Positions 20,273 to 23,200 of a DNA stretch of 64,000 nucleotides are shown piece by piece. A program made the translations under genes and the position numbers. This DNA is from Galaxea fascicularis (taxonomy: Eukaryota; Cnidaria; Anthozoa; Scleractinia; Euphylliidae), in assembly GCA_948470475.1 (NCBI GenBank), contig OX419341.1:17851726-17915725 (forward strand), given 5' to 3'. The first letter of the stretch is position 1, and the number at the start of each line of letters is the position of its first letter. The notes beneath the pieces were generated by a model. The model was not told the origin of the DNA and ran no database searches. It worked only from the letters and a program-made list of their open reading frames with translations.

Positions 20273-23200
20273 TTATTTGTAACACCAAGTATTGTACTTG
20301 GTGGCTTTATTCCTCGCTGGCCAAAAACCATGAATTCCTGTCTTGTTTCCGCAGCCAGATTTCGCCTCCTGCATTGGATAGAAAACTGAGCTATCTGCTA
20401 GCCATCCAAAGCTGAAAGAAATAAAAAAAGTATTTCGAATATGTCACGGAGTTTGTGATATTATATGTCGTTAATTTTACCCTTCAAGTTTTTTCTGAAG
20501 TCGACGATTGACGTCAGGTCTTAAATACTATTAGAATTTGTGTGCATGACAGTAGTGGCAGAAAGACTGAACAAAATTGAAGTAGTCGTCTGACGTAACA
20601 ATATACAGGAGACCACACCATGGAGAGTATTCACATGGCGTCACGGCGGTCATGTTGGTGTACCAAAACAAAGGAATGGCGGCCATATTGGCATACCAGG
20701 CTCACCCTCTGATCGAGAATTGAACTCTATTTTTATGCAAGCACTTTCTTTTGTTTCATCAATCCAATATGGCCTCTGGTGACATGAATGAATACTCTCT
20801 ATAAACGTTTTGGATAGGTTATATAATTCTTTCGCTTTCACCGAGTTGCCAATGATTGTGTACTTTGGTTCACTTTGAACGTGAATTATAATCTAAAAAT
20901 GGAACCTCCCAAACATCTAGCTTAAGGTAGGAAATGATTGATCGAGGAAAGGTACAAATTTGACAAAAAAATAAAGGGTTGTAAAACGAACCTGCATTGT
21001 TGCAGACCGGCCTCCCAGGCTGCATGCAGCTGGTTATACGTAGCTAATTTTGCTCCCAGCAGTTCGCAAAATTGTTTGGCGTTGTCAAAGTTGAGGTTAT
21101 ATCTGTCAACCACTTTCCCGTGGAAAACTCCTTTAACGGAACTGGAGATAAATATGTCTTTCTGATCTGCAAAGTGATTTGAAAGATAGTAAGGGAATTT
21201 ACGTGCAGGAATTTCTCACTCCACAACCCACTCAGTTTAATTTGATTCCCATTAAAGCAAAGCCACCGCACTTTCTTTCAATTCCGACAGGTTGGAAAAT
21301 ATTGAACTGATCTCAACCCGACATAAAATGTGTTTGATTCTTATCAAACACCAACAGTGACGCATAAGTAAATGCAGAAGGTTAAGGTTATGTAAACCTT
21401 CAGGGTTGCCTTCGAAAAATCGCTTAGGTGCGCGCTGCTTTTAAATAAGCCACAAAAAAGTATATATCACTGGAAAGGCAAACGCAATCGTTCAGCCAAA
21501 GAACTGACAGCGTTAGCTCAACCGAATTAAACCTTGTGTTACAGACATCTAAATTTTGTTAGAATCCGTTGAGATTTTTTCGCTCGACAGGAGGGAATAC
21601 AGGCAAAACTAGAATAAGTATAAAATAAATAAATTGAGTAAAGTAATAAACAAACAAAGAAACAAACAAAGTAGTATAATAAAATTATAAATAAATAAAT
21701 AATAATCAGTCTTTATTTCATCAAAAGATAAAAGTACATATCTTTTGTTACAATAATATACAACAAATATATAGGCCGAAACAGTACTGTCTGCAGTTAG
21801 ATATAGCTCTTTGGCATTACAAAGCTTTGCCTTTATGTCCAAATTGAGCACTCTACTGGGATGAGTCATTGCTAATGCACTGCGCATCGCTCACTGGTTT
21901 TACCAGTTTGAGCACTCTGGCATGACTAAATGGTACCACAAGTGTGGTATCATTTGGGATGGTTATATAGCCTTACCTTCCTCCTAGCATCAGCACTGCA
22001 CTGATGAGGCCCAGAAGGCCGAAACAGTACTGTCTGCAGTTATATATATATATATATATATATAGTATATATATCTGAGCGAATTTGCTAAAAGGTGGCC
22101 GCTAAAGTTTTCGCTTGAACACGTGTTCAAGCCATTGTGGCCGCTCAAAATTGAGGGGGCTTGCCGTCAAGGCCTGGTTTACCAAACAGCTGAGGGACAG
22201 TTATAACAGTGGGTGGGTGACTCTGAGCTTCGTGTCAAAAGCACAGGACTAGGGGGGGGGGGGCGTCCTGCTTTGAGAATTTGACTGCACTAAGAGTTTG
22301 TGGCCTCGTAAAGTGAGTCTATACAGTGTGGGATGCCTTGACAATTTTGCCTGGTATAGTGTAGGCCTGAATGATAGTTTGCTTTTGATTACCAATTAGA
22401 GTAAACCCACAGTGTGCAGTGGGTGGGTGATTGGCAGTTGTGTGACCAAAGCAGAGGGGTGGGGAGAGGGTTGACTTGGTGTTTTGTGACGGCAGCGGAA
22501 TTTGCTTGTTTTTTGGGCGTAGGCAGCCTTTTTTCCTTATGTTATGTGCGTAATTCTTCTGGACAGGAAAGATATTCTCCAGTGGGTGGCAATCAGTTCA
22601 CCTTGATTTCTTTAGAATATTTCGGTCTTGTTTATTTAAAGGGCCTTGATAAAAACTGGGAATGAGATAAAACGCCGTTTATGGCAACGGTCTAAAAACG
22701 TTTGTATAGGGCGTCACTTGGGGTCCTAACCAACCACAGAGCCGGATTTCGAACTCGTGATACAAATGGGCCAACGAGAAAGCGAGTCATAAATGAGGAA
22801 AATAAGGGGACCTGTAATAATTACCTGCCATGACATCACAAGGTCGGAAAGACTCCGAGAAGGCCCGAGCAGAGATTGGAGACCCATGAAGAGACGTCGG
22901 AAAGACAAGAAAAGAAAGGAGAAGAGAAATGTTGGAACCGCCAGTTCTTTTTATTGAATTGAAAAAAAAAAAGTCCTATATACAGAAGTGGAACATGTTG
23001 GTGAGGTCCGGCTGACCTGCCTGTCCCAGGGAGGAACGTTCTTGACTTACGATTGTAAGAGTGCGTGCAGATTGTCCTTGTCCTGGGAATTCCACTCGCG
23101 ACCCGTATAGCCTGGTGGAGCAGTCTGTCCAGTTGATCCCCCGTTTGTCGAACGCAGAGCGGTACACTTTCGTTTGTGGTTGGAGGGAATGGTCTTAGTG

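Follow-up and report, generated by a model that had tools for sequence, protein, structure and literature searches.

Insertion ends of a hammerhead retrozyme family in Galaxea fascicularis suggest copying past the ribozyme cut by Penelope-like enzymes

A 64,000-nucleotide stretch of contig OX419341.1 of the stony coral Galaxea fascicularis, hereafter the window, contains a 243-bp element with a complete hammerhead ribozyme. The element belongs to a dispersed family whose insertions have a fixed 3′ end just beyond the predicted ribozyme cut, ragged 5′ ends and TA repeats at the 3′ junction. Successive copies of the unit within one array, or laps, resemble one another, and the ends of the genome's own Penelope-like elements (PLEs) have the same layout. 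We consider it fairly probable that the element is a non-autonomous retrozyme of the kind without long terminal repeats (non-LTR), copied by a PLE protein from a circular or multimeric RNA at a fixed internal start into AT-rich DNA, a reading in which we infer the cutting of the RNA, the circle and the PLE as actor. A fixed 3′ junction beside the ribozyme, PLE-like in layout and target, would name the mobilising partner.

The hammerhead core at 21995-22040 is complete on the forward strand (ACTGCA-CTGATGA-GGCC-CAGAA-GGCC-GAA-ACAG-TA-CTGT-C/TGCAGT, the slash marking the cut predicted after C22034), with six base pairs in stem I, four in stem II and four in stem III, which is closed by a TA loop. 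A first-pass annotation made from the letters alone had described this ribozyme together with a second 3′ half exactly one unit upstream, and both statements hold. A direct repeat (21773-21805 and 22016-22048) is 97% identical at a spacing of 243, and the descriptor that finds two hammerheads in the window on both strands (21995-22040 forward, 34218-34186 reverse) averages 0.015 hits over 200 first-order Markov sequences, none of which has more than one. No long terminal repeat beyond the ribozyme half was found at the 243-bp element. The left copy consists of the 3′ half only, and for it self-cutting alone is impossible. The covariance-model check that the annotation proposed came out divided: at the gathering level Rfam returned no match in the whole window, whereas a permissive search of 21700-22120 gave Hammerhead_HH9 as the sole significant hammerhead match, with E 8e-4 and 24.3 bits, below its gathering score of 52. 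The core and three stems with an open stem I are those of the type I hammerhead of metazoan non-LTR retrozymes. At the right ribozyme a contact between loops 1 and 2 is unlikely, because the 6-bp stem I leads directly into TA repeats.

The annotation also expected related copies elsewhere, and these are numerous in the 416.6-Mb assembly, for which all search counts are lower bounds. BLAST with the 267-bp element gave at least 64 matches (40 of 104 candidates scored), the full-length ones outside the window being 91-98% identical, and a 22-nucleotide (nt) pattern taken from the 3′ half of the ribozyme, allowing at most one mismatch, matched 95 times in the genome against 0 for the reversed control; the ribozyme occurred in 0 viral contigs and 0 prokaryote contigs. 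The genomic loci (L001-L105) were collapsed to 77 arrays, leaving out repeat views of one place, L044 (ends and flanks equal to those of L043) and four loci without an insert of at least 46 bp (L064, L078, L094 and L098, of which three share the fixed 3′ end and L098 is unmatched); the 77 still include the apparent segmental duplicate pairs L037/L039 and L102/L103. Array lengths run from 50 to 1084 bp, or 0.2 to 4.46 units, and exceed 267 bp in 20 of the 77, as in a family of dispersed multimeric copies. At 243 bp and 46% guanine plus cytosine (G+C), the unit falls within the size and composition of metazoan non-LTR retrozymes (about 170-400 bp, G+C below 50%), and the name retrozyme is apt, given the match to coral non-LTR retrozymes in size, G+C, hammerhead type and dispersed, partly tandem copies. 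Judged by its sequence, the locus is a real, well-kept copy of this known coral kind. That the hammerhead is instead a chance match or a dead relic, as the silence of Rfam at the gathering level and a competing hairpin might suggest, we find scarcely credible in view of the chance expectation, the abundance of the 3′ half relative to its reversed control, and a ribozyme identical to the family majority in a unit that departs from that majority at four positions elsewhere.

Within arrays, units join as CTGTC/TGCAGTTAGATATAGC, and at right ends the arrays run out as CTGTC/TGCAGTTAG/TTATATA or CTGTC/TGCAGTTA/TATATA. A single 3′ site, 5-9 nt beyond the ribozyme cut, ends 65 of the 77 arrays, mostly with TA repeats next: 39 are of class TTAG/TTA, 17 of class TTA/TATA and two of class TTAG/TTT, with one each of TTAG/TAT, TTAG/TGA and TTAG/TTG and four others a few nt from the fixed site. 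The fairer figure is 33 of 40, from an initial sample that was collected with the entire element and not selected by that end, because the 22-nt search pattern overlaps part of the fixed end. Left ends are ragged: four lie exactly on the predicted cut, six at +2 or +3, ten at +6 to +9, 17 at positions 81-94, nine at 103-116 and eight at 197-207. As a general cause of these 5′ stops, RNA stems found no support, left ends falling in 5′ arms, unpaired segments and 3′ arms (30, 24 and 23) much as the background does (85, 73 and 85). The combination of a fixed 3′ end and ragged 5′ ends is characteristic of target-primed reverse transcription. The 3′ end lies beyond the cut, and the template therefore ran past the cut, from which we infer a ligated circle or an uncut multimer. 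The annotation held that the family deserves description, which is partly right: coral non-LTR retrozymes are already in print (excerpts of PMC7229834), and what looks new is the insertion ends.

A run of (TA)4 or more stands at the right end in 55 of the 77 arrays and at the left end in 29 (at both ends in 22, at the right alone in 33, at the left alone in 7 and at neither in 15), compared with 0.4% of window 30-mers, and the surplus at right ends agrees with nicking at a TT that borders a TA tract. The same junctions could be read in terms of a linear master, in which a few arrays ending GTTAGTTATATA(TA)n give read-through transcripts and this TA-tailed linear RNA is copied in the manner of a short interspersed nuclear element, the ribozyme and the circle taking no part in transposition. 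Fixed 3′ and ragged 5′ ends fit this account equally, the 33 of 77 arrays with TA solely on the right speak for it, and one tail, TGCAGTTAGTTATATA, has 34 exact occurrences in the genome. We nevertheless regard it as rather unlikely, since the second 3′ end TTA/TATA (17 of 77) and TT before non-TA DNA (L019 and L062) suggest that TT belongs to the target, and a terminal ribozyme, unless inactive, would remove the tail. The four left ends on the predicted cut also speak against it, although they are merely suggestive because 5′ stops have other hot spots.

Comparison of laps bears on the nature of the template. In 16 arrays with enough lap overlap, scored for substitutions only against a comparison set that includes old copies, the laps of an array resemble one another more closely than they do those of other arrays in 15 (Wilcoxon p 0.0008), and array-private variants recur in at least two laps in four (L008, L009, L013 and L014). 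This likeness favours a circle or a homogeneous multimer as template, short of proving a circle. In L013, an array of 4.46 units, a 27-nt deletion in the 5′ half of the ribozyme is common to two laps, and lap types alternate. A dimeric circular template for L013 (lap 1 like 3, lap 2 like 4) was rejected: lap 2 combines left markers like those of lap 4 with the lap 0 deletion and marker, an arrangement that a single unequal exchange explains.

The genome holds at least 126 GIY-YIG matches (150 of 944 candidates scored). At L106 an open frame of 834 amino acids has GIY-YIG at 722-801, and its named relatives include Montipora proteins among the matches listed (120, mostly unnamed). About 560 nt past its stop lies a hammerhead-like core (3905, plus strand) and then a (TA)-rich tract, across which, on the minus strand, come an open frame of 143 amino acids (4600-4169) and a hammerhead at 4088. 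Pfam did not recognise GIY-YIG in the 143-residue frame; the PLE nature of this second element is taken from its DNA likeness (78% identity) to L011, whose frame matches the PLE protein (23% identity, E 2e-6). Window positions 34142-34223 are identical at 82 of 82 bases to L106 4012-4093, its minus-strand hammerhead end, and the second window hammerhead is thus probably a PLE 3′ end. A direct duplication (32603-33291 and 33400-34083, 99% identity) finishes near that hammerhead. L005 brings the two kinds of element together: downstream of an open frame of 436 amino acids with a GIY-YIG match come, in this order, a hammerhead core at 1394, a TA tract and a retrozyme, the two elements meeting at their 3′ ends. 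PLEs with minimal hammerheads are reportedly treated by Cervera and de la Pena 2014 and Lunse 2017.

Apart from the main retrozyme form, the loci and the window contain 42 core-like motifs, of which 31 have (TA)4 or more within 260 nt downstream, compared with a window background of 2.6%. The 42 include the retrozyme variants L023, L052 and L088 and the unconvincing w-56712, without which the count is 30 of 38, and for L068, one of the 30, the TA tract belongs to the retrozyme itself. These loci were picked for retrozymes, elements that lie in TA tracts, and this biases the proportion upward. Distances are the better evidence: in several families the spacing between GAAA and the TA tract takes two discrete values, for example 60/126, 46/115, 55/120 and 71/173. 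A PLE-type core within 300 nt has its 3′ end facing the retrozyme in 20 of the 77 arrays and facing away in five, and controls on either strand found one in 2 of 100 pieces 800-1100 nt off and in 11 of 637 overlapping window pieces. A GIY-YIG match comes within 3 kb of six of 81 retrozyme places (this test used the 119 matches on C1-C13, out of 126), where random placement gave a mean of 0.14 and reached six in 0 of 2000 trials. Most pairs of GIY-YIG neighbours with less than 10 kb between them are oriented head to head (minus then plus in 11 of 17), and at L007 1493-2245 two retrozymes likewise stand head to head with 3′ ends outward; such pairs would fit priming from both DNA strands. A GCTC...GAGC hairpin past the start site was seen by eye in several elements, yet the pattern matched only one of nine pieces and no claim is made for it.

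The 243-bp unit is too short to encode the reverse transcriptase and GIY-YIG of an autonomous PLE, an open reading frame that sits in L106, and at the level of sequence it has the internal start near a hammerhead and the AT-rich target of an element mobilised by one. An enzyme of the long interspersed nuclear element (LINE) type might instead move the retrozyme, with PLEs and retrozymes merely gathering in TA repeats. The window does carry a LINE-like frame of 1019 codons with RVT_1 (reverse transcriptase) and Exo_endo_phos domains (13960-17016, forward strand), and shared TA tracts alone could produce the neighbourhood of the two. We judge this quite improbable, because a start close to a hammerhead, together with the discrete ends that PLEs show family by family, is the closer match and because PLE-type cores point toward retrozymes four times as often as away.

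The order of events under copying by a PLE protein may be pictured as follows. Retrozyme RNA would be cut by its own hammerhead, and a ligated circle or an uncut multimer, running past the cut site, would serve as the RNA that is copied. A PLE protein would probably nick AT-rich DNA, often at a TT bordering a TA repeat. Reverse transcription would then begin at a constant internal position, 8-9 nt beyond the cut made by the hammerhead (UGCAGUUA(G) or UGCAGUUAG), and the cDNA would vary in length between part of a lap and 4.5 laps. A further proposition, which we are as ready to doubt as to believe, is that the retrozyme is a stripped-down PLE that kept the hammerhead and the start signal for reverse transcription, its circular RNA being copied in trans by coral PLE enzymes with TA repeats as primer. 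If so, genomic junctions would record both the enzyme that moves metazoan retrozymes and a template that passes the cut.

Several points weigh against this account. The fixed 3′ end is absent in 12 of the 77 arrays, which are cut off inside the unit or end otherwise, and 5′ stops gather at places other than the cut, 81-94 foremost. Arrays inspected by eye show no consistent target-site duplication. In metazoan non-LTR retrozymes such duplications, when present, exceed 4 bp; here the flanks are TA-rich, and one is readable by eye only in L019, the 4-bp TTTG. The preponderance of TA on the right only over TA on both sides makes a carried or newly made TA tail possible, and shared TA targets could reflect shared preference only; the comparison of ends covers retrozymes and PLEs. 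An unconstrained energy fold of a 57-nt ribozyme piece gives no hammerhead fold, and CATCAG is able to pair with CTGATG of the core in a competing hairpin. Laps of L010 lack any shared variant. Finally, the anole PLE inserts RNA with a dead ribozyme (excerpts of PMC11167929), and cutting may therefore be dispensable.

The retrozyme likely lies in an intron of a Link gene, as the first-pass annotation had it: the element sits between an Xlink exon and a weak EGF-like match, in antisense orientation to the gene (Table 1). The paralog of the right-flank repeat (32114-32541) stands behind a plain (AT)29, and on sequence grounds the pair amounts to half an empty site, comparable on that side only. 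This dispersed repeat (22041-22511 and 32081-32541) starts in a TA tract and recurs in the flanks of L004 and L014 as well as in part of L021. Elsewhere in the window, 60703-63998 on the forward strand has a weak PNMA-like match, an aspartyl protease, a reverse transcriptase and RNase H, as in an LTR-type retrotransposon that extends beyond the window; related 16-bp tandem arrays lie in opposite orientation at 31010-31249 and 37793-38935; and 35236-37694 and 49195-53494 form an inverted repeat in several pieces of 87-95% identity.

Table 1. Features at and around the retrozyme (window positions)
Feature	Position	Strand	Basis
Left partial copy, hammerhead 3′ half (GGCCGAAACAGTACTGTC) to predicted cut	21774..21791	+	sequence, direct repeat
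Full 243-bp retrozyme unit, predicted cut to predicted cut	21792..22034	+	sequence, direct repeat, genome copies
Complete hammerhead core, stems I-III, predicted cut after C22034	21995..22040	+	descriptor; weak Rfam HH9 match
Insertion 3′ end TGCAGTTA, 8 nt beyond predicted cut, class TTA/TATA	22035..22042	+	end sorting of arrays
TA repeat at 3′ junction, putative target	22041..22074	+	repeat scan
Neighbouring dispersed repeat, 85% identical to 32114-32541	22075..22511	+	self-comparison of window
Xlink (Link domain) exon of host gene	20925..21215	-	PF00193, E 4e-13
Probable EGF-like exon, same gene	27186..27389	-	PF00008, E 0.0026, 18.4 bits, below cut-off 21.5
Second hammerhead core, GTA cut site, stems I 5, II 4, III 4 pairs	34186..34218	-	descriptor; absent from first-pass annotation

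Small non-coding retroelements with hammerheads and a proposed circular RNA are also known from plants (excerpts of PMC4918200), although the plant LTR retrozymes differ in having type III hammerheads, long terminal repeats, a primer-binding site and polypurine tract, and a 4-bp target duplication (excerpts of PMC7229834 and PMC7761336). Much closer is Acropora millepora, with more than 6000 type I hammerheads, variant retrozymes near 225 and 245 bp in length and circles on northern blots; as excerpted, these non-LTR retrozymes likewise form dispersed dimers to multimers of low G+C with no open reading frame seen, and the likeness drawn here is one of description, a fixed 3′ end or TA target not figuring in the main text (PMC7229834). 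Titles and abstract openings in the literature covered, with few subscription papers among it, mention no fixed ends or TA targets for retrozymes, and according to excerpts of a 2020 review no retrozyme motif reveals the mobilising partner. PLEs with minimal hammerheads share with the coral family a hammerhead near the insertion end, an internal start of reverse transcription, an AT-rich target and an optional tail, and encode a reverse transcriptase and GIY-YIG, unlike the retrozyme unit; in the excerpted account the anole PLE prefers AT-rich DNA and starts from two nearby internal sites, which explains its optional insertion tail (PMC11167929). The anole start lies 111-118 bp into the open reading frame, compared with 8-9 nt past the cut in the coral retrozyme, and the anole tail is 30-40 bp, compared with the longer differences of about 65-100 nt between the paired distances of coral PLE types (same excerpts). 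PLEs were already put forward as strong candidates for mobilising retrozymes, from their coexistence and shared type I hammerheads (excerpts of PMC7229834); to that published idea the present work adds the evidence of the junctions.
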